64,000 bases of DNA from Dictyobacter aurantiacus (lineage in GTDB: Bacteria; Chloroflexota; Ktedonobacteria; Ktedonobacterales; Ktedonobacteraceae). Numbering within the stretch: position 1 is the first letter of the stretch; each line of letters opens with the position of its first letter. The position numbers and the translations under genes were made by a program. This document shows positions 3,860 to 13,829 of this stretch, piece after piece. The notes under the pieces were generated by a model, which was not told the DNA's origin, made no database searches, and saw nothing but the letters and a program-made list of their open reading frames with translations. Location of the stretch: assembly GCF_003967515.1 (NCBI RefSeq), contig NZ_BIFQ01000001.1, positions 4,712,001 to 4,776,000 of the forward strand. The letters run 5' to 3'.

Positions 3860-5602
3860 TTATCCGTATTTTTTGACAGTGAAGCTGGAGAGGTGTTGGA
3901 TGTGGTCGTACAACCAGATCGCGCCCCCCATACGGTTGCCGCTGCCGGGATCGTACGCCCCATAGTAGGCGTTGCAGCCTTGCGTATAGAGATCATCCAG
4001 CGTTGTTTTATCGTTGGGATTGGTCGCCAGTTTGGTGGCGTCCGACCGGATCAGGGTGAGCATATCAACGATGCGGTTCAGGTTTACGTTGATCTGATTA
4101 ATCTGCTGCTTCTGGTCTGGCGTGATCTGTGGTGCCTCGATCAGGCCAGTGAGATGGTGCCCCATCAGCTTATCGAAGCCGGTTGGATTCTCGTGCTCGG
4201 GATCCAGTGTCAGCAGGCCGATGCGCGACGTCTTCTGGTCCACCAGTAATTTGGTGCCCCGCGGAACATCCTGCGCCACGTATTTGTATCCATCGATATA
4301 ATCTAGAATTTTGGTAACGTCGTATTTAGTGGTGGCTGGATTATTCTTGTTGCGCGCATCCCTGGACAGCAGCATAACTTCCTGAATATCCTGTTGGAAC
4401 CAGAACGCTATACCCCCCTTGAGGTCGACATTCAGATCCTTATTTTGCAGGGTGGGATCCTGGTAGAGCAGATGCCTCAGATGATCCAGTTGCGTGCCCG
4501 CCGCCATATTCATGGAGTCGCCATTGTCGCCACCCATATTCATCGCTGAGCTACCGGAATTGCCCTGTGGAATCTCCGCGTAGTAGCGCCACATGCTTTT
4601 GTCGGTCGTCGGCGTGCTGGGGGGGATGCTGCTGTTCTCGGCGGTGATCAGGATGCGGCTCCCTAACGCCAGCAGATTATTATGGGTCGGGCTGACATAG
4701 GAGAGCGTCGCGCTGTGATCGCTGATGTCTGGCAGTTTACCCATCAGGACGGTATTGGCTTCACTCGCCTGTGAGTCCGCCAGGAGCCAGACGTAATAGC
4801 TCTTATTCGCCGGAGGGGGAGCAATATTATTTAGGGTGACGTTGAGTCCGTCGTTGGCACCTTTTGTGCCGTCGCTGTTAAATAATTCTGAGCTGGTGAA
4901 ATAGGCATTGCCGGCGACCAGGTTGGGTGGTGGCGGTGCTGGCTGTGGGCGAAATACGTTGATAAGTACTACGATCACGCTGGCCAGGACGATCAGCGAG
5001 GCCAGCGCAATCGAGCCGATCATCAAATTTTTGCGCCCGATGGTGTAGGGCATGTCTCTGAGCACCGCCATTCGGGGCGGAGGGGCCAGTGGTCGATCAT
5101 ATGTCGGCGATGGCGTACTGAAATGGCTGATCCTTTTCGGCAGGCGCGTCTGTTCAGGAGCCTCAATGGTATGCAAACTGCCTGTATCCCCCAGAGAAAG
5201 GATGAACAGAAGCTTTTCAAGCGCCTTTGGATAATCTAGCGCGATATTGATGGTATTGAGCTCGCTCCACTCCTGGGGAGCCTGCACGGTCTCGGTAGGA
5301 GTGGGGATAATGCGCAGGATCTCTGATTGCTGCTGCTCTGTGAGCCGTTGGGCGGCCGTGAAGATGGCGCGCGTCCTGGGATGCTGCAACGTTTCGGCCG
5401 TTTGGGCGAACATGATCCATTGACAGGTGGGCAGGGAGCGAGTGATGTATTGGTAAAAGTCTTCATCTGTATTCCGGCCCGCATCGGTGATGACCTCTGT
5501 GCCGGCGGCACGCAGGTCATTAAATAACTGCCGCAGCAGCGATTGACCTGCATCTGGCGTTTCGCCCGGATAATAGCAAATGAAGACTCTTGGAATATCC
5601 AT
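3860..5602 (-). CDS. TIR-like domain membrane protein with large C-terminal domain
   Basis: This protein of 580 residues starts at the ATG at 5602, which has AGGAG 7 bases upstream. A further 32 in-frame residues upstream have no ribosome site. Residues 1-110 look like a TIR fold (RVFICYYPGE...; LRAAGTEVITDAG; FYQYITRSL; WIMFAQTAET). A linker with prolines precedes a single membrane span (about 195-220, MIGSIALASLIVLASVIVVL). The remaining 360 residues would be outside; the first part (YYVWLLADSQ..., LMGKLPDI) resembles the ectodomain of RskA-type anti-sigma factors, and it is followed by a Met/Asn/Gly-rich stretch and a helical region. It is transcribed away from the secretion block and shares its upstream region, so co-regulation is possible. 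Function is not known. Confidence 0.7.
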   Translation of the reverse strand: MDIPRVFICYYPGETPDAGQSLLRQLFNDLRAAGTEVITDAGRNTDEDFYQYITRSLPTCQWIMFAQTAETLQHPRTRAIFTAAQRLTEQQQSEILRIIPTPTETVQAPQEWSELNTINIALDYPKALEKLLFILSLGDTGSLHTIEAPEQTRLPKRISHFSTPSPTYDRPLAPPPRMAVLRDMPYTIGRKNLMIGSIALASLIVLASVIVVLINVFRPQPAPPPPNLVAGNAYFTSSELFNSDGTKGANDGLNVTLNNIAPPPANKSYYVWLLADSQASEANTVLMGKLPDISDHSATLSYVSPTHNNLLALGSRILITAENSSIPPSTPTTDKSMWRYYAEIPQGNSGSSAMNMGGDNGDSMNMAAGTQLDHLRHLLYQDPTLQNKDLNVDLKGGIAFWFQQDIQEVMLLSRDARNKNNPATTKYDVTKILDYIDGYKYVAQDVPRGTKLLVDQKTSRIGLLTLDPEHENPTGFDKLMGHHLTGLIEAPQITPDQKQQINQINVNLNRIVDMLTLIRSDATKLATNPNDKTTLDDLYTQGCNAYYGAYDPGSGNRMGGAIWLYDHIQHLSSFTVKKYG

Positions 5603-5792
5603 GTGATGTCTCCTATAAGTGCTATGTAGGAATAAATTGACATATGTCTGGCAAGCATTGCGATTGCAAGTATAACAGAGTGTGGTATTCTTATACAAGT
5701 AGTAATGGTCTGTAGTTGCATTTTCGTTTAATATCTTAAATGTTGAGCCTGTTTACCTATTTATTCCTGGTTGATTAACCAGGGTGAAGTTC

Positions 5793-6569
5793 ATGGAGAG
5801 TTGTGCACGTATGAATCGTATGTTGTATACCCAGCCGGCCACGTCGCTGACACCCGCACTTATTATTTATTTGATCGATGCCAGCCATTCTATGAATGAT
5901 CTATGTGGTGCTGTGACCAAGATCGACCTGGTGAATCGGGCCCTGCGGGATGTGATCAAAGATATGGTGCGCCGCTCTATGCGCGACGGGGTGGTGCAGC
6001 GACGGTACAAAGTGGCGATCCTGGCGTACAGTACCGAGGTGGTTGATGTGCTGGGGGGCATTCGCGATCTGCCCGAACTGGTGCGCGAGGGCACGCCGAT
6101 CTTGAGTGCCGGTGGCGAGACGGATACCAGCGCGGGCTTCGCGGCCGTCGAGTCGCTGCTGCAGGAAAATATCGCCAGCTTCCAATCTCATCCCGCCCCC
6201 CTGGTCTGCCACCTGACCGACGCCCTCTTTACCGAGAGCGATCCCTCTCCCCTCATCAAGCGTATCCAAAGCATGGCGGTTAACGACGGACCTGTGCTGG
6301 TAGAGAATGTCTATGTGGCCGACAAGATGCTGCGCTCATCCGTCGCGGACTGGCATAACTGGGGTGGGGTTACCAGGCCGAGTCAGTTGACCAATGAATA
6401 TGCCAGGCTGCTCTTTCACCTCTCCTCGCCGCTGCCCGAAACGTATCGGCAGAACATTAATAATTATGGCTATCATCTGCAGAACGGTATCCCCCTCTTC
6501 TTTCCCGGTACCCATACCGACCTTGTGCGGCTGGCCTTCGCCGTCTCCTCGGCAACCCAATTAAAATAA
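5793..6569 (+). CDS. VWA-domain protein of a TerY-like triad
   Basis: This is a von Willebrand A-domain protein of about 258 residues, cytoplasmic, with a metal-ion-dependent adhesion site: DASHS near the N-terminus, GGETDTS in the middle, and HLTDALF. Such proteins bind partners through the metal ion. It is followed within 25 bp by a PP2C-like phosphatase, which overlaps a protein kinase gene. VWA, PP2C and kinase genes in this order match the TerY-P triad known from bacterial phosphorylation systems. The start is uncertain: ATGs at 5784, 5793 and 5811 are all in frame. I chose 5793 because AGGGTG lies about 6 bases upstream. It is the first gene of the block leading into type VII secretion genes. 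Confidence 0.8.
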   Translation: MESCARMNRMLYTQPATSLTPALIIYLIDASHSMNDLCGAVTKIDLVNRALRDVIKDMVRRSMRDGVVQRRYKVAILAYSTEVVDVLGGIRDLPELVREGTPILSAGGETDTSAGFAAVESLLQENIASFQSHPAPLVCHLTDALFTESDPSPLIKRIQSMAVNDGPVLVENVYVADKMLRSSVADWHNWGGVTRPSQLTNEYARLLFHLSSPLPETYRQNINNYGYHLQNGIPLFFPGTHTDLVRLAFAVSSATQLK

Positions 6570-6592
6570 GTCAGAAGGAAATACATGTAACT

Positions 6593-7459
6593 ATGCCGTC
6601 AAAACATGCTGAGGATGCGTTTCGCATCCTCGAGAGTGATCAGATCATCGATAGCTTTACGCGCGCCGAACTGGCCTCTTCCACGATCGCTCGTCTGCTC
6701 TCGTTCCGCTGCCGCGAGGCGCGGGAGCAGGCGTTACCTAATCAAGACTATGCCAGGATCTCTTACCGTAAGGATGGTTCGTCGCTCAGCTTCTGCGTCA
6801 GCGATGGCGTGAGTAGTTCTTACAAAGGTGATTTCGCCGCCTGCTGCCTGGCAGCATACCTGGTGAAGTGGTTGCAGGAGTTGCCGGCCGAGGCCGCGCG
6901 GCATGAACGATTGGATGCCGCCCTGCGTACGCAGCTTGATCGCCTGGCGGTGCAGGCGCAGCAGCAGCTCCAGAGGCTGGAGATGGAGCCGGGTACTCCT
7001 GGCCTGGTGCGCGAGGTGCTGGAGGATCTGCGCCAGAACTATGGGAGCGAGACGGTCTTTTTTTGTGGTCGCCTGGATTATGAGATGAGCATTGACCGCC
7101 AGCGGGCGCAGCTCAAGAGTGCTTTCTTTTGCTGGATGGGCAATGTGACGGCGCGCCTCTTCCTGAATGAGCAGCAGTATATCTTGTTGGGGGAGAAGAC
7201 CGATAAAAATGGACGCTGGTCCACGCGCCATGGATGCCGGGGTGAGCTACATACCTGGAGCCGTTCCCTCTCGACCCTTGAGCGTCTGATTGTGCATACT
7301 GATGGTCTGGATGCCATCGGGGAGACCCTGTCAACCCTGGATGATGATGCCTGGTTGGCCGAAGTCCAGCGGCTCCTGGCCTCGTCAGACAGTGATGACA
7401 TGACGGTTTTCGATCTGTCCTGGTTGCCCGCCGAGGATGCAGAGGGGACATGGCGGTGA
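6593..7459 (+). CDS. PP2C-like Ser/Thr phosphatase
   Basis: This 288-residue cytoplasmic protein has PP2C signatures: FCVSDGVSSSYKGD (metal-binding D71 and D80, in place of the usual DGxGG), a central beta-rich part, VHTDGLDAIG, and a C-terminal SDDMTVFDLSW motif supplying the last metal aspartate. It would remove phosphate from proteins modified by the adjacent kinase. Its 3' end overlaps the kinase start by 10 bp, indicating translational coupling. A helical insertion (about 95-150, Arg/Gln/Leu-rich) is longer than in minimal PP2C domains. The ribosome site (AAGGAAA) is rather far from the ATG. Confidence 0.8.
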   Translation: MPSKHAEDAFRILESDQIIDSFTRAELASSTIARLLSFRCREAREQALPNQDYARISYRKDGSSLSFCVSDGVSSSYKGDFAACCLAAYLVKWLQELPAEAARHERLDAALRTQLDRLAVQAQQQLQRLEMEPGTPGLVREVLEDLRQNYGSETVFFCGRLDYEMSIDRQRAQLKSAFFCWMGNVTARLFLNEQQYILLGEKTDKNGRWSTRHGCRGELHTWSRSLSTLERLIVHTDGLDAIGETLSTLDDDAWLAEVQRLLASSDSDDMTVFDLSWLPAEDAEGTWR

Positions 7460-8388
7460 ATACATTCCATCCACACCAGGGGATGCTCTTGCCGATTGGG
7501 GCGGCCTACTATCACTTTCTCCCCCATCCCTATTTTCCCGATGATCGGCAAGAGGTTTTTGTGCTGGAAGGCGGAGAAGCCTTTGTCTACAAGCTGCACC
7601 ACCTTGGGGAGAAGCGGGACTATGCCTTGAAGGTGATGAAGCCGGGATTCCGTGATCCCTATAGTTTGCAGGTGGCCCGGCACCTGGCGCAATATACCAA
7701 TGTGCCGGGACTCTTTCTGGCTCGCCGTACCTGCCTGACGCGTGAACAGTACCCAACGTTGATCCGGCGCTTTCCCGAGCTCGAATACGCGGTCCTCATG
7801 CCCTGGCTTGAGTCTCGCACCTGGACCGGGCTGCTGCTTGATCCCGTGGCGAGCAGACACTATACGCCGAGCAACGCTCGCAAACTGGCGACCGCCACGG
7901 CCCATGTCCTCTGGAACCTGGAGGATCGTTTGCTGGCCCACACCGATATCGCCGGCAGCAACGTCGTCTTAAGCCCCGACGTGCAGCAGATCCAACTGAT
8001 CGATCTGGATGCCATGTATATTCATGGCCTGAAGATGCCAAAGCGGCATAGCCGCGGCTCCCCCGGCTACCAGCATCCTAACCAGGATGAGCGCGGCCAG
8101 TGGCGTGCCGACGGTGATCGCTTTGCGGGCGCCATCCTGCTAGCGGAGATGCTTACCTGGTGGAATCCCATCATACGTGCTGAGACTCCCGAAGGATCTG
8201 AGTCGCTCTTTTCTCCCCAGGAGCTGCAGCGGCGCGATGCCACACGCTGGCGACGTGTACGCCGCACGCTAGAACAGATGAATCCAGCTTTACGCGACCT
8301 CTTCGATCAGGCCTGGGCCTCGCGCAGGATTGAAGATTGTCCCGATTTTGGTTCCTGGTCTATGTGTCTGATTACATCTTTCATATAG
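7450..8388 (+). CDS. Soluble protein kinase-like protein of the triad
   Basis: A 312-residue protein kinase fold without a membrane segment. Visible elements are a glycine loop GGEAFVYKL (41-49), ATP lysine K61 in YALKVM, catalytic loop HTDIAGSN (164-171), and a metal motif DLD (185-187) where most kinases have DFG. A GSPGYQHP segment (about 204-211) corresponds to the activation segment. HTD replaces HRD, so activity is likely but the enzyme is divergent. The start overlaps the PP2C gene. In Firmicutes type VII systems the EssB/YukC component carries a kinase-like domain; whether this soluble kinase is a counterpart is only an inference. Confidence 0.8.
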   Translation: MAVNTFHPHQGMLLPIGAAYYHFLPHPYFPDDRQEVFVLEGGEAFVYKLHHLGEKRDYALKVMKPGFRDPYSLQVARHLAQYTNVPGLFLARRTCLTREQYPTLIRRFPELEYAVLMPWLESRTWTGLLLDPVASRHYTPSNARKLATATAHVLWNLEDRLLAHTDIAGSNVVLSPDVQQIQLIDLDAMYIHGLKMPKRHSRGSPGYQHPNQDERGQWRADGDRFAGAILLAEMLTWWNPIIRAETPEGSESLFSPQELQRRDATRWRRVRRTLEQMNPALRDLFDQAWASRRIEDCPDFGSWSMCLITSFI

Positions 8389-8557
8389 AAGTATTGCAAT
8401 TTTCCAATGCAGGCTGTAAATTGGGTGTCGAAGGATTTGCATGCTGAGTAATCTAATACTAGTAATACTAGCATCTAAGATTTCCAGTGGTGAATTGAGA
8501 TCTGAAATTCCCTATTGTTTGTTGTACGTTATTCACCTTATTCAAGAGAGGTTTTCC

Positions 8558-8863
8558 ATGAGCAGCAATCAGGTAGCTACAGATTTTTCAGAAATGGATG
8601 CGGCGGTAAGAACGTTTGATACCAACGTGATCAATCTGGAAGAGGCAATTTCCAACGTACAGAGCGCCGTTGACCGGCTGGGGGCCGTTTGGAAAGGTAG
8701 TGGTCACGACCAGTTTGTGCTTGCTACACAGTCCTGGAGCAAAGTCTCGAAAGAGATGAAAGACACGCTGCACCAGATCAACCAGAACTTGATGGCCAGT
8801 AACCAGGAATACCAGCGGGTGGAGCAAGAGGTTTCAAAGTCTTTTCACGGTTTTCAGATCTAA
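8558..8863 (+). CDS. WXG100 family protein (EsxA-like)
   Basis: This 101-residue all-helical protein has the WXG turn (VWKGSG) between two helices and a C-terminal YQRVE, which fits the YxxxD/E secretion signal of type VII substrates. The chosen ATG at 8558 has GAGAGG about 8 bases upstream; the longer frame beginning at 8441 would add a hydrophobic, poorly supported extension. The gene lies between the kinase and a YukD-like gene and upstream of the EccC-like ATPase, so it is the expected core substrate or structural partner of the secretion machine. It probably has its own promoter in the preceding 169-bp spacer, but I see no firm motif. Confidence 0.88.
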   Translation: MSSNQVATDFSEMDAAVRTFDTNVINLEEAISNVQSAVDRLGAVWKGSGHDQFVLATQSWSKVSKEMKDTLHQINQNLMASNQEYQRVEQEVSKSFHGFQI

Positions 8864-8896
8864 TGCTGCTGCCGGGGCGGCTCCCGGGAGCAACGT

Positions 8897-8926
8897 GCCT
8901 GAGCTTTCTCATCTGTCGTGCTCAGG
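8897..8926 (+). terminator. Hairpin after the WXG100 gene
   Basis: TGCCTGAGC pairs with GCTCAGGCA about 15 bases downstream. There is no strong T-run, so it may attenuate transcription or protect the abundant WXG100 message rather than fully terminate it. Confidence 0.5.
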
Positions 8927-8936
8927 CATCATAAGT

Positions 8937-9014
8937 ATGCTGGTGCATGGAGGGTTCGAATGCGATCTGCATGCACCAGCATGCGAAAAATGGAACGACC
9001 GCGCCAGCGGACGC
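8937..9014. repeat. Bipartite palindrome, degenerate copy (inverted)
   Basis: ATGCTGGTGCATG (8937-8949) pairs with CATGCACCAGCAT (8970-8982) across an unusually long 20-nt loop. It is followed by CAGCGGACGC (9005-9014), the inverse of the GCGTCCGCTG flank of copies 1 and 2. It sits between the WXG100 gene and the YukD-like gene. Confidence 0.65.
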
Positions 9015-9038
9015 TGTGTACATTAGCGAGTATACGTT

Positions 9039-9407
9039 ATGCAAACCCTACTTGTTACCGTTACGGGACAGCGGCAATCATTCGATCTTGAACTGCCTGG
9101 CGATATACCCGTTAGCGAGCTCTTACCTTTTCTTCTGGATCTCTGTGTTCCTCAGAAGGATAATGCCAGGCAAGCTGATGCCACTTCCTGGTGTTTATGC
9201 CTGGCCGAACAGACAACGGCCTTGCAGCCCACCCATACGTTGATCGACGCGGGCATCATGGACGGCGCCATCCTGCATCTGCAGACCCTGGCGGCATTGG
9301 AACAGGCGCGCAAGCCAAAACAACCACTGGGACCCCGGCAAATCGTACCGGGACCAGAAACGGGCGGCATCGGCGTGCGCTGGCAGCGAGGCGACCTCGA
9401 TTTTTAG
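9039..9407 (+). CDS. YukD/EsaB-like ubiquitin-fold protein
   Basis: A 122-residue protein whose first 80 residues (MQTLLVTVTGQRQSFDLELPGDIPV...TLIDAGIMDGAILHL) match the ubiquitin-like fold of YukD/EsaB, small cytoplasmic components of type VII secretion. A 35-40-residue basic and proline-rich tail extends beyond the usual 80-residue family length. The gene lies 78 bp before the EccC-like ATPase gene and after the WXG100 gene, the standard neighbourhood. The ribosome site is weak (AGCGAG), so translation may be low or depend on upstream structure. Confidence 0.85.
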   Translation: MQTLLVTVTGQRQSFDLELPGDIPVSELLPFLLDLCVPQKDNARQADATSWCLCLAEQTTALQPTHTLIDAGIMDGAILHLQTLAALEQARKPKQPLGPRQIVPGPETGGIGVRWQRGDLDF

Positions 9408-9485
9408 CCCTTCTATCATTATTATCTTCCAGTGAAATGGCCCTGACATGCGCTGAGCGGCTACAGCTGAAGGGATAACATATAT

Positions 9486-12400
9486 ATGCATGGAATAAAA
9501 TTTTATCGACCGGCCAGGGCTTATCCGGCTGTCTTGCCCTCTGAGGAGATCGTCATCCAGACTCCTCCCACGCTGCCTCCCGATCCCAGTGGTGTCATGG
9601 TCTGGATGCAATACCTGCTCCCCATTGTGGGGAGTCTGGGTTCCATGATTTTTATGCTGGCCTATCGTACCAATCCGCTGATGGTTGGCGCCTGCATCCT
9701 GATGATCGTCTGCTCCATCGGTGGTGGTGTCGGTATGGGAGTCGCTCAGCGCCATACGAAGAAGAAGATGCTCAAGCATGATGGGGAGTTGTACCGCGCC
9801 TATTTAGCGCAGCATCGCACGCGTCTGCGCTCGATCGCGCAGCAGCAGCGCCAGGTGGCCGATCGTCTCTACCCCTCCTATGATCGCCTGGCCGAGCAGG
9901 TGAAGCAGCACCTCTACCTGTGGGAGCGCCGGCCCGAGGATGGCGATTTTCTACGGGTGCGCATCGGCATCGGTCCCGTTCCTCTCTGCTGCCGCGTGCG
10001 CCTGGACCTGGGTGGCAATCCTATGGTGCAGTTCATCCCCGAACTGCGCGCCCTGGCCGAGTCGCTGGTCAACGAGTCGAGCTACCTTGATGATATGCCG
10101 GCCCATATTCTGCTGAAGCAGATCGGTGTGCTGGCGATCAGCGGACAGCGCGCGCGTACGCGCTCATTGACGCAGGCCATGCTCTGCCAGATCCTGGCCC
10201 TGCAATCCCCCGAAGATGTGCGCTGCCTGGTCTATTTCCCCGAACATCTCGCCCAGCAGTGGAGCTGGATCAAGTGGGCCCCCCATCTGCGCCGACTGCG
10301 CCAGGTGAAGGCCGAGAAGCAGAATACACCCGATCAGCTCTGCATGCTTGCCAGCACATTGGATGAGCTGCGCAAGCTCCTTCAATTGCAGATCAAGCCG
10401 GAACTGGACCGTCGCCGCCGCCTGCTCTCCGATAAAAATAAGCAGGATAATCAGAAAGATCTGACCCACCCCCACCTGGTCCTGGTGCTGGATGGCTTCG
10501 CCCCCTATGGTCCTATTGGACAGATGCCCGAGATGGATGAACTGCTGCGGGATGCCGCGCAGCTGGGCGTGACCGTTATCTGCCTGGTCGACGATAAGCG
10601 TCAGGAGCCGACGCAGATCCAGGCCCGGCTCTCCATCTCGCCGATCGGCCAGTTGGATTTCGAGGAGATGCGCTTTGGTGGTCGGCGCCTGGAGGGTCTG
10701 CGCCCCGATAGCATTGAGCGCGAGACCTGTGAGAAGATCTCGCGCAGCCTGGCCTCTATTACGCTGATCGAGGCCAACGCGCAGCAGGACCTTTCGCACG
10801 ACGTGCGCCTGCTGGATCTGCTCTCGATCCCATCGGCCGACGCGGTACAACCCGAAGAGAATTGGAAGCCACGTCAGAAGCAGGATCTGCTGCGCGTGCC
10901 GCTCGGCATCCGGGCGGATGGTGAGCCGCTGGTGCTGGATCTCAAAGAGGCGGCGGATGGAGGTATGGGTCCCCATGGGCTGGTTGTGGGCGCGACCGGC
11001 TCGGGCAAGAGTGAGCTGTTGCGTACAATGGTCATCAGCCTGGCCGCGACCCATGATCCCGAAACGGTCAACTTTGTGCTGATCGACTTTAAGGGTGGCG
11101 CCTCCTTCGCCGATTTTGCCGCACTGCCGCATGTGGCCGGTATCATCACCAATCTGCAGGGGGATGTCTCGCTGGTCGACCGCGTCTATAACTCACTGCT
11201 GGGAGAGCAGCAGCGCCGGCAGAGGATGCTGCACGACGCCGGCAATCTGGATAACATCAAGCAGTATCGTGAGAAGTGGCGTACCCATCCAGAGATGGAG
11301 CCGATGCCGCATCTGCTGATTATCGCGGACGAATTCGCCGAGCTGATTAGCAGTCGGCCGGACTTCCTGGACCTTTTTGTGACCATGGGACGCGTTGGGC
11401 GAAGCCTGGGATTGCACCTGCTGTTCGCCACCCAGCGTCTCGACGAGGGACGCATCCGCGGTCTGGAGGGTCATCTGCGCTACCGCATCTGTCTGCGTAC
11501 GTTCAGTGCCTCTGAGAGTACCTCCGTGCTGGGCAAGACCGACGCCTACTATCTGCCCTCCGCCCCTGGCGTTGGCTATTTCAAGGTCGATACCGACACC
11601 TATCATATGTTTAAGACGGCCCTGATCTCGGTGCCCTTTGTCCCTGTGCGTGAGCAGGTATCGCCGCTGGCCCGCATCCGCGACTTCACGGCCACCGGAG
11701 CGCTGGTCAGGCATCACTATACCTCGGTCTCGGCCTCCCCCACCATGCTGCTGCAGGATGATGAGGGCAGCGAACTGCATACCGAGATGGATGTCGTCAT
11801 CGATCAACTGGCTGGTGGGAGCCAGCGTCACAGCCACGCCCATCAGGTCTGGCTACCGCCCTTGAGCAAGCATCTGCCGCTGCGCGAGGTTCTGACACAG
11901 TATTGCCAGCAGCCGGACCTCAAGGGGCGCTCCTGGAGCTCAACACCACCGTTTGGTCCTCTGCAGCTTCCCATGGGCCTGGTAGATTTGCCGCTACAGC
12001 AGGCTCAGGAGCCGATGTGGCTTGACTTTTCTGGATCTGGGGGACACCTGGCGCTGGTTGGCGCGCCTCAGACCGGTAAGAGTACCTTCTTGCGCACGCT
12101 GGTTACCTCGTTTATGCTTACCCATGCGCCAACCGATGTACAGCTCTATTGTATCGACCTGGGTGGTGGCCTGCTGCGTGTCTTTGAGTCGGCGCCCCAT
12201 GTGGGAGTCGTGTGCGGCAAGGCTGATCGTGACAAGGTGCGCCGCGTCATTCGCCAGATGCGCAAGATCATCGAGGATCGCGAGTTCCTCTTCCGCGAGC
12301 ACGGCATTGACAGCATGAACACCTTCCGCGCGCGTCGTCAGGCGGGCGAGCTGCGCGAGATCCCCTTTGGCGACGTGTTCCTGGTGATCGACAACTTCGC

Positions 12401-13571
12401 CCTCTTCTGCCAGGAGTTTGGCCTGGAAGACGAGGTGACCGAGCTCGCCGCCAGCGGATTGACCTATGGCGTACACGTGGTGCTGGCCGCCAATCGCTGG
12501 GCCGAGATCCGTAGCCGCCTGCGCGACAATATCGGTACGCGCCTGGAATTGCGTCTGAACGATCCGCTCGACTCCGAGTTTGGCAAGCTGGCGGCGGCAG
12601 CCATCGCGCTGGGAGTCCCCGGTCGAGGCTTGAATAAAGATAAACTGCACTTTCAGGTCGCGCTCCCTCTGATTGAGGAGACCCGGCTGGAGAATACCAG
12701 CCAGAACACGGCGATGCAGCAGGTCGTTGAGCGCTTTGTGCTCCAGGTGCGCGCCGCCTGGAAGGGCGAGGTCGCGCCTCCCATTCGCCTCCTGCCCCTG
12801 CTGGTGCGGCCCGAAGACCTACCGCGCCCCGCCTCCGATCAGCCGGCGGGCGTCCCCCTGGGACTGGAAGAATTCCGCCTTGACCCGCTCTACATTGATC
12901 TGCTGGGCGCTGGCCCTCATTTCCTGATCCTTGGCGACATGGAGTGCGGCAAGACAACGCTGCTGCGTACCTTCCTGCGCGGTATCGAGCAGCACTATAC
13001 ACCGGCCGAGGCCAGATTTGGCATTATCGATTATCGCAAGACGCTGCTCGATTTTGTGGATAGCAAACACCTGCTGATGTACGCCTATAATCCACCCACC
13101 CTGGCCGAGTGCGTTGGCAACTTCCAGGCCGATCTCGACAAGCGCATGAAGGTCGGAGCCGATCTACCACTGCATCAGCTGCGCAGCCGACAGCGCTGGA
13201 GCGGCATCCACTACTTCCTGTTCGTGGACGACTATGATTCCATCGTCACATCGCCCAGCAGCAGCCCTCTGGGACCCCTGGTAGAATTTCTGCTGTCCGG
13301 CAAGGATATCGGCTTCCACCTGGTGCTGGCCCGGCGCGTTGGTGGCATGGGACGTGCCTCGTTTGAGCCGGTCCTGCAGCGCCTGCGCGAAATGGGAACG
13401 GCCACCCTGATTATGAGCGGAGATCCGCAGGAGGGGCGCATCATCCATGGCTATGCCGCCTCCCAGCAACCGCCAGGACGTGGCTCCCTCGTACAGCTGA
13501 AGACCCCGCCCACCCTGGTGCAGGTCGCCTACACCGAACCCTCCTACGCCTACAGCGCTGACTTAGGATAG
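9486..13571 (+). CDS. EccC/EssC-like FtsK/SpoIIIE ATPase of type VII secretion
   Basis: This 1361-residue membrane-anchored motor drives WXG100 secretion. The N-terminus (EEIVIQTPPTLPPDPSG) resembles actinobacterial EccC and is followed by two membrane spans (about 38-58 and 63-83). No FHA domains are seen, unlike Firmicutes EssC. Three FtsK/SpoIIIE ATPase modules follow, with Walker A motifs GATGSGKS (502-509), GAPQTGKS (859-866) and GDMECGKT (1150-1157). The first has a clear Walker B (LLIIADEFAEL); the second has VIDNF and the third FLFVDDY, so the latter two may be weakly active. No EccB, EccD, EsaA or mycosin gene lies nearby, suggesting a reduced machine or components elsewhere. Confidence 0.93.
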   Translation: MHGIKFYRPARAYPAVLPSEEIVIQTPPTLPPDPSGVMVWMQYLLPIVGSLGSMIFMLAYRTNPLMVGACILMIVCSIGGGVGMGVAQRHTKKKMLKHDGELYRAYLAQHRTRLRSIAQQQRQVADRLYPSYDRLAEQVKQHLYLWERRPEDGDFLRVRIGIGPVPLCCRVRLDLGGNPMVQFIPELRALAESLVNESSYLDDMPAHILLKQIGVLAISGQRARTRSLTQAMLCQILALQSPEDVRCLVYFPEHLAQQWSWIKWAPHLRRLRQVKAEKQNTPDQLCMLASTLDELRKLLQLQIKPELDRRRRLLSDKNKQDNQKDLTHPHLVLVLDGFAPYGPIGQMPEMDELLRDAAQLGVTVICLVDDKRQEPTQIQARLSISPIGQLDFEEMRFGGRRLEGLRPDSIERETCEKISRSLASITLIEANAQQDLSHDVRLLDLLSIPSADAVQPEENWKPRQKQDLLRVPLGIRADGEPLVLDLKEAADGGMGPHGLVVGATGSGKSELLRTMVISLAATHDPETVNFVLIDFKGGASFADFAALPHVAGIITNLQGDVSLVDRVYNSLLGEQQRRQRMLHDAGNLDNIKQYREKWRTHPEMEPMPHLLIIADEFAELISSRPDFLDLFVTMGRVGRSLGLHLLFATQRLDEGRIRGLEGHLRYRICLRTFSASESTSVLGKTDAYYLPSAPGVGYFKVDTDTYHMFKTALISVPFVPVREQVSPLARIRDFTATGALVRHHYTSVSASPTMLLQDDEGSELHTEMDVVIDQLAGGSQRHSHAHQVWLPPLSKHLPLREVLTQYCQQPDLKGRSWSSTPPFGPLQLPMGLVDLPLQQAQEPMWLDFSGSGGHLALVGAPQTGKSTFLRTLVTSFMLTHAPTDVQLYCIDLGGGLLRVFESAPHVGVVCGKADRDKVRRVIRQMRKIIEDREFLFREHGIDSMNTFRARRQAGELREIPFGDVFLVIDNFALFCQEFGLEDEVTELAASGLTYGVHVVLAANRWAEIRSRLRDNIGTRLELRLNDPLDSEFGKLAAAAIALGVPGRGLNKDKLHFQVALPLIEETRLENTSQNTAMQQVVERFVLQVRAAWKGEVAPPIRLLPLLVRPEDLPRPASDQPAGVPLGLEEFRLDPLYIDLLGAGPHFLILGDMECGKTTLLRTFLRGIEQHYTPAEARFGIIDYRKTLLDFVDSKHLLMYAYNPPTLAECVGNFQADLDKRMKVGADLPLHQLRSRQRWSGIHYFLFVDDYDSIVTSPSSSPLGPLVEFLLSGKDIGFHLVLARRVGGMGRASFEPVLQRLREMGTATLIMSGDPQEGRIIHGYAASQQPPGRGSLVQLKTPPTLVQVAYTEPSYAYSADLG

Positions 13572-13595
13572 CGCATATAAGGAGAGAGACAATTC

Positions 13596-13829
13596 ATGGA
13601 AGGTTTTCCTGGAGGTTATATACTCGTTCCGGTTTTTGATTGCTGGCTACAATACTATGGTCCCCAGGAACTATAAAACAGCCAGGATCGCCAGACTCTG
13701 GCACAATCGCTCCAAGATGTTATCCATGACTATTCATATAACAACTCGGTTCTGGCCGATCTCGATAACGGTAGTGTCCTGTTTCGCTCGGGATCCAATT
13801 CGTGGGATATGGGGGATGAAGGTGAATAG
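13596..13829 (+). pseudogene. Short ORF after the EccC-like gene, split by an in-frame TAA
   Basis: An ATG at 13596, with GGAGAGAG 7-9 bases upstream, opens a 26-codon frame (MEGFPGGYILVPVFDCW...) that ends at TAA 13674-13676. The same frame then continues for 50 more codons with ordinary composition (QDRQTLAQSLQDVIHDY..., DLDNGSVLFRSGSNSWD) to TAG at 13827. It lies 24 bp downstream of the secretion ATPase in the same direction. It may be a recently inactivated last gene of the operon, or a 26-residue peptide with a chance extension. I do not recognise the family. Confidence 0.5.

Follow-up and report, generated by a model that had tools for sequence, protein, structure and literature searches.

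Here, we provide evidence for a compact type VII secretion locus in Dictyobacter aurantiacus (Chloroflexota; class Ktedonobacteria), carried on a 64,000-nucleotide stretch of its genome (contig NZ_BIFQ01000001.1, positions 4,712,001 to 4,776,000; the window). Six genes, encoding a VWA protein, a PP2C phosphatase, a protein kinase, a WXG100 protein, a YukD protein and an EccC-type ATPase, lie in that order on the + strand at window 5784-13571, and we infer, as the likelier though far from certain reading, that transport by the encoded machine is switched by reversible phosphorylation. Judged by gene neighborhoods and trees, the VWA-PP2C-kinase triad and the secretion genes are one unit within the class, inherited largely together, and by profile and phylogeny the ATPase is of the T7SSa type, grouping with actinobacterial EccC and not with Paenibacillaceae ATPases of similar loci. 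A system of similar parts, T7SSc, was described from Bacillota by Garrett, Higginson and Palmer in 2024 (PMC11217815), where the components TscA-G are given as WXG100, YukD, ATPase, transmembrane (TM) kinase, VWA, PPM phosphatase and EspG-like protein; the best reading of the present cluster is that it would work like T7SSc but on a T7SSa-type motor. Positions below are in window numbering; L-codes denote loci or stretches and G-codes genomes, G000 being the genome of the window.

5784-6569, + strand: VWA protein, TscE-like; GTG start, alternative ATG at 5793 (PF13519, 7.8e-7; PADLOC TerY, 1.1e-18)
6593-7459, + strand: PP2C/PPM phosphatase, TscF-like (PF13672, 7.5e-9)
7450-8388, + strand: soluble protein kinase, TscD-like without the membrane part (PF00069, 2.4e-6, 27.6 bits, below the 31.7 cut-off)
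8441-8863, likely start 8558, + strand: WXG100 protein, TscA-like (PF06013, 3.2e-13; NCBIfam WXG100_ESAT6, TIGR03930, 52.5 over 44.85)
9039-9407, + strand: free YukD/EsaB ubiquitin-like protein of 122 amino acids (aa), TscB-like (PF08817, 4.5e-17; match to the EccD N-terminus, 1e-10)
9486-13571, + strand: EccC-type ATPase with an N-terminal TM region and three FtsK/SpoIIIE modules (FtsK_SpoIIIE, 2.6e-88)
3860-5698, likely start 5602, - strand: TIR domain-single TM-ectodomain protein, divergent from the VWA gene; proposed extra component

The locus and its conservation within the class

The original prediction, made from the letters of the window alone, had named the six genes, their strand and order, the WKG and YxxxE motifs and a three-module ATPase, all of which are borne out; both WKG and YQRVE occur in the WXG100 sequence. 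Its limits were near right, as ATG 5793 is a possible start of the VWA gene, though EccC stops at 13571 and not at 13829, and its gene set left out the divergent TIR-TM gene, which probably belongs to the cluster and makes the unit larger by one gene. The VWA and PP2C genes are separated by 23 bases, and the PP2C and kinase genes overlap by 10. For the WXG100 gene, ATG 8558 is more likely the true start on the sequence as read, giving a protein of 101 aa; AAGAGAGG stands directly 5' of this ATG in the upstream sequence. Neither an FHA domain in the ATPase (by Pfam) nor a TM segment in the VWA protein, phosphatase or kinase of the window was found, and promoter and terminator signals at the locus were in no clear excess over shuffled sequence. 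The whole genome yields two WXG100 matches at E <= 1e-3.

Profile searches of 47 genomes of the class returned 21 strong kinase matches (> 150 bits; the next scored 53) and 20 strong VWA genes (22 rows > 115 bits; next 52.5). For 15 of the 21 kinases there is an EccC gene at a distance of about 10 kb or less, and 17 of the 21 adjoin some type VII gene, the kinase of G041 sharing a 3.5-kb contig with WXG100 and YukD genes and that of G012:C204 a contig with WXG100 proteins. Similarly, 17 of the 20 VWA genes are near EccC on one contig, the others being in G041 (contig break), G012:C204 (WXG100 only) and G028:C240. The phosphatase gave 13 strong matches at E <= 1e-12, of which 12 adjoin VWA and kinase genes and one stands alone (G012:C200, L091). 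The full set of seven, TIR through EccC, stays together in L012, L013, L016 and L017, of which L012 is from Tengunoibacter tsumagoiensis and L017 from Thermogemmatispora carboxidivorans, and in a comparison with the stretches of L012, L013, L014, L016 and L034 the genes flanking the cluster in the window found no match, the TIR gene alone matching. The same-genus genome G024 retains TIR residues 547-612 beside EccC residues 1261-1359, with no other piece of the cluster in the stretch, a remnant explicable by a single deletion running from TIR into EccC; in G026, the TIR, VWA and EccC frames are interrupted, possibly through sequencing error.

The genome of the window carries the cluster twice. 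The second copy (L010/L077) starts with VWA, PP2C and kinase genes divergent from a TIR-TM gene, followed by genes for a 569-aa protein and an RRXRR/HNH protein, and continues with genes for WXG100, YukD, EccC and two PknB-type kinases that appear to have a TM segment, and then a DnaJ-WD40 gene; its EccC is 49% identical to that of the window. EccC and kinase trees are alike in pairing the window and L012, and likewise L010/L077 and L023, both groups at 100/100, and a quick VWA tree agrees on the same partners, with SH-aLRT (Shimodaira-Hasegawa-like approximate likelihood ratio test) values of 87 for the window pair, the weaker, and 99 for the L010/L077 pair. The RRXRR and HNH gene (L010:12796-14205; G000:C1:3422795-3424204; Pfam), between the 569-aa and WXG100 genes, encodes what we take to be an IscB-like protein.

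A distant EccC clade (L029-L033) gave triad profile matches in none of its five stretches searched. A VWA-domain gene of another family (PF00092) adjoins EccC at L029:12690-14027, L032 has two PknB-like kinases, and an intein-bearing DnaB helicase gene adjoins EccC at L030:5765-7567. A third, split EccC-like ATPase (818 + 372 aa) is found in the window's genome at L041:8439-12021 (G000:C1, about 3292400-3296000) and has short or split relatives in 12 other class stretches (L035-L040, L042-L047); L035-L047 hold no strong match to a VWA or kinase of the type VII kind. The same genome also encodes, at C1:2491151-2494998 (L078, G000:C1:2484000-2503900), a separate and distant TerY-like pair of a VWA protein and a 743-aa kinase, in which the kinase scores 41 bits and the VWA 74 bits, versus at least 323 for complete kinases of the class and at least 366 for complete VWA proteins of the type VII set, and no type VII gene was matched in that stretch.

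Pedigree of the ATPase and occurrence outside the class

The ATPase of the window exceeds the cut-offs of both T7SSa models, TIGR03924 (EccCa; 698 over 509 bits) and TIGR03925 (EccCb; 742 over 347 bits), and falls short of that for EssC (TIGR03928; 653, under 778); against solved structures it scores 876 bits with PDB 4nh0 versus 238 bits with YukB. Nine class ATPases average 38.6% identity to five from Streptomyces and Nonomuraea versus 25.0% to three from Paenibacillaceae. These yardsticks are Paenibacillaceae loci picked by composition, not accessions from PMC11217815, and L059 and L061 among them lack a detected PP2C. The tree places the window's kind with actinobacterial EccC at 100/100, and the Paenibacillaceae rows sit apart from T7SSa, joined by a long-branched Enterococcus ATPase; the tree is midpoint-rooted with long branches, and the split held with four long rows removed. 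A single clade of the 18 triad-bearing ATPase rows is rejected (approximately unbiased test, p-AU 2.8e-53), three of these rows being triad-bearing on part evidence (L015, with the triad on other contigs; L019 and L025, with the VWA alone beside EccC), and a class EccC clade apart from actinobacterial EccCs gave p 0.464.

A kinase scan of genome contigs returned 20 loci, including six Paenibacillaceae loci with kinase, VWA and EccC (L059-L061, L063, L065, L066); of these, L066 showed no WXG100, and L059 and L061 no PP2C. When 400 genomes sampled from the phylum were scanned with the VWA, six candidates being scored in each, four genomes outside the class gave strong matches. In G269 and G224, the VWA, PP2C and kinase genes adjoin EccC; in an Anaerolineae genome (L062), the triad and EccC are on separate contigs. 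G301 (VWA, PP2C, kinase) and G146 (VWA, kinase) had no EccC match at E <= 1e-25, nor at that threshold had the genomes of a delta-proteobacterium (L064) and a Rubrobacter metagenome-assembled genome (L067). With a triad in genomes lacking an EccC match, the triad therefore exists also without type VII genes. The original prediction had looked to a neighborhood survey for the triad lying apart from the secretion genes: the two keep together in the class, as the kinase counts indicate, but the picture outside is mixed, with EccC in five of the nine genomes searched that have VWA or kinase relatives. At L071:9527-13105 (G146), the gene after VWA encodes a kinase in one chain with a Roc-COR GTPase (PF08477, PF16095, PF25497). 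In Cohnella panacarvi, the protein encoded at L060:7471-9162 has its VWA domain after a PknB-type kinase domain, and that locus therefore has two kinases.

Active sites, membrane partner and rival explanations

An AlphaFold2 model of the window kinase (mean predicted local distance difference test score, pLDDT, 94.1) has a kinase fold and matches solved kinases. Residues K61, H164, D166, N171 and D185 are kept in all 25 aligned kinases (18 from the class, seven from outside; L017, L060, L061, L064, L067, L069 and L071 were left out of the alignment), the PP2C aspartates checked are kept in 8/8 aligned, and the metal ion-dependent adhesion site (MIDAS) residues of the VWA are kept in 12 aligned proteins save for S34 to G in L020. 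The control by reversible phosphorylation put forward in the original prediction fits these conserved sites. By simple hydropathy, none of the 19 class kinases scanned, which measure 303-335 aa, shows a convincing TM segment (three have weak ones, of 1.61-1.72), and among 14 kinase open reading frames at 13 loci outside the class a TM segment of at least 2.0 was found in eight, a weaker one in three and none in three.

A separate membrane protein accompanies the triad. By a fixed rule applied to the class loci listed, with the whole window included, a single-pass protein adjoins the VWA or kinase gene at 13 of 20, compared with 10 of 109 other proteins of at least 250 aa in the same stretches. 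Eleven of these 13 partners are TIR proteins, that of L021 is a zinc-ribbon protein and that of L074 a PknB-like kinase; L018 and L019 have no such partner by the rule, L022 is cut at the stretch end, the sequences of L025, L075 and L081 stop close to the triad, and the TIR gene of L017 is present but was missed by the gene picker. The window TIR domain matches PF13676 (TIR_2) at 1.3e-4 (22.9 bits, below the cut-off); the match is likewise below the cut-off in L012, is not reported in L016, and is above it in L010, L014, L020 and L023. Although the TIR-TM model is weak overall (pLDDT 65.2), its TIR part matches the SPARTA and SARM1 TIR structures. Among matches listed to 8.5e-14 for the L023 TIR protein within the class, 12 of the 14 covering the TIR N-terminus are at triad loci. 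The position aligned by eye with the catalytic glutamate, a site we assume from SARM1-type TIRs, is not E in 11 of 12 proteins and is E in L020, and we tentatively suggest that the TIR domain serves as a scaffold and not an enzyme. A LamG-like ectodomain was considered as a type VII-specific mark and discarded, since many other class proteins match the L023 TIR protein in its C-terminal half.

Several observations weigh against a unit whose transport is switched by phosphorylation. Several of the class loci come from one genus, so that the counts are not independent. Four of the 21 strong kinases (G028:C240, G012:C30, G035 and a G027 fragment on a 3.9-kb contig) have no type VII gene in the stretch seen, and PP2C went undetected at six VWA- and kinase-bearing loci of the class (L014, L020, L021, L022, L074, L076), the phosphatase being therefore dispensable or supplied from elsewhere. 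Outside the class, four of the nine genomes with VWA or kinase relatives (G146, G301, G401, G402) have no EccC at E <= 1e-25. The kinases of L023, L076 and L077 deviate at both positions checked in the glycine-loop region. Two TIR relatives lie away from type VII genes (G028:C282, G029:C321; L089, L090), and no TIR-TM gene was seen at L018, L019, L021, L022, L025, L074, L075 and L081, of which L022, L025, L075 and L081 are incomplete. No toxin or cargo gene was recognized adjoining the window's own locus.

These points bear on three rival explanations. The triad could be an ordinary TerY-type stress or defense module travelling with the secretion genes by chance, and the VWA match to PADLOC TerY, the kinase match to STK_OB (1.8e-13), the relatives without EccC outside the class and the four class kinases without type VII neighbors are what such a module would leave; we regard it as quite improbable, given that the distant TerY-like pair elsewhere in the genome marks the type VII triad as its own subfamily, and that EccC accompanies the triad at both paralogous loci of this genome as well as at loci of Bacillota. 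It is also very unlikely that the kinase takes the place of EssB as a structural element, its fold mattering and not its catalysis, with no signaling involved. That EssB/YukC has a kinase-like domain, that EssB is found in 0/47 class genomes and that three kinases have an altered glycine-loop region would suit a stand-in, but the catalytic residues are intact in every kinase aligned, 12 class loci have a phosphatase gene adjoining those for VWA and kinase, and the class kinases scanned show no convincing TM helix. The original prediction's alternative, a kinase in the part of EssB, is not supported, given the same intact active site and lack of a convincing TM helix. EssB goes unnamed among the matches listed for the kinase in the PDB (best 60 of 83 by profile) or the Foldseek matches listed for its model (best 50 of at least 2000); as an EssB homologue, the kinase is unsupported by these two listings and by the class search for EssB.

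A plain T7SSc, that is, a Bacillota-type system acquired by or common to Chloroflexota and structurally unchanged, appears unlikely, though six of seven components fit by type, the kinase and VWA of the window are 31% and 37% identical to those of Paenibacillus, and the T7SSc ATPases are reported in PMC11217815 to cluster nearer T7SSa EccC than T7SSb, which would narrow the ATPase gap. Against it stand the higher identity of the ATPase to Streptomyces and Nonomuraea than to Paenibacillaceae, the rejection of one triad-bearing clade, the kinase without TM segment, and a TscG-like search that, with guessed queries, gave no class match. Beyond these three, we raise a wider evolutionary possibility that we hold as doubtful. 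The VWA-PP2C-kinase switch might be an old type VII part paired with two ATPase lineages, one being EccC on the T7SSa side (Ktedonobacteria) and the other that of Bacillota as well as other Chloroflexota; an early, pre-ESX state would then persist in Ktedonobacteria, ESX would have lost the switch, the EssB pseudokinase would be the same kinase in decayed form, and the membrane half would have split off as a subunit with an exchangeable TIR, zinc-ribbon or second kinase module.

Proposed mechanism and comparison with known systems

Under the reading we prefer, a phosphorylation-switched type VII locus, the WXG100 protein would dock via its YxxxE tail on the ATPase and open it, as in known EccC systems, with YukD sitting on the first ATPase module. 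The kinase and phosphatase would set the phosphorylation state of WXG100, the ATPase or YukD, and the VWA protein would be the scaffold holding both at the ATPase/YukD platform. The TIR-TM protein may report the state of the envelope or of contact and recruit the kinase to the membrane, replacing as a separate subunit the role of the TscD membrane half in Bacillota. Cargo would be WXG100-headed toxins, mainly against other bacteria, and several loci hold candidates consistent with the system being, as the gene content suggests, probably an exporter of WXG100-linked antibacterial toxins. An EndoU nuclease gene lies between WXG100 and EccC at L014:6756-7766, its N-terminal WXG100 match (24.7 bits) being below the cut-off, and the 116-aa gene after it may encode immunity; L020 and L074 have WXG100-headed proteins; a papain-fold toxin domain (PF15644) is part of a 1375-aa protein encoded between VWA/kinase and EccC at L022:3210-7337; and the Paenibacillus locus L059 has an Rhs protein with a WXG100 match of 23.2 bits, below the cut-off.

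What turns type VII machines on is an open question, and kinase-bearing variants were catalogued only in 2024. The soluble kinase, phosphatase, VWA and separate membrane protein can each be purified singly, and the idea of a phospho-switch is therefore testable. Since the T7SSc parts list was published in 2024, the association of triad and secretion genes is itself not new, and an older survey (PMC1779556) reports YukD, a serine/threonine kinase and an FtsK-like ATPase linked in low-GC Gram-positives. The survey of PMC11217815 was seeded with a Brevibacillus ATPase, and the string 'Chloroflex' occurs nowhere in the main text of that paper; a review (PMC10765036) and a 2014 study (PMC3935865) mention a limited number of WXG100 sequences in Chloroflexota. 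Our searches of the open-access literature found no account of the cluster in Chloroflexota, nor of a TIR protein accompanying it. Within the reach of these searches, the new features are the phylum, the coupling of a T7SSc-type switch to a T7SSa-type motor, the solubility of the kinase, and a membrane protein that is separate and whose cytoplasmic module is exchangeable.

Compared with VWA-phosphatase-kinase triads of the TerY-P type, the triad has the same protein types side by side, as its PADLOC matches reflect, but is a separate sequence subfamily tied to type VII genes. With T7SSb (EsaA, EssA, EssB, EsaB, EssC), the locus shares a single WXG100, a free YukD-like protein and a kinase-fold component, but its ATPase is without FHA and its kinase is soluble with an intact active site. 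The lack of EsaA in the earlier account largely holds across the class, and EssB is likewise unmatched: EssB/YukC (PF10140) is matched in none of the 47 genomes, the B. subtilis control being positive, and the EsaA N-terminus (TIGR03929) in none over the cut-off, with weak sub-cut-off matches in four. With T7SSa, the ESX systems of Actinomycetota, it shares the ATPase type, both EccCa and EccCb models being over cut-off, but differs in having one core WXG100, a free YukD at the locus in place of a polytopic EccD, and the triad; EccB (PF05108) was matched in 0/47 class genomes and was silent also in all 14 control genomes.

The closest likeness in parts is to T7SSc, with WXG100, a separate YukD-like protein, an FHA-less EccC-like ATPase, a kinase with intact active site, VWA and PPM phosphatase, and no T7SSa/b extras found. 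It differs in that T7SSc is published for Bacillota and its TscD has at least one TM helix, unlike the class kinases by simple hydropathy, and in the added TIR-TM protein. TscG is listed for T7SSc, and phmmer with a 266-aa Paenibacillus and 639-655-aa Cohnella/P. athensensis kinase neighbors gave no TscG-like match in the class, the identity of these queries being guessed and the feature being defined by fold. Finally, the window ATPase lies with actinobacterial EccC and not with the Paenibacillaceae yardsticks, and this mixed pedigree of a T7SSc-like switch and a T7SSa-type motor bears on the origin of ESX and adds Chloroflexota to the comparison.

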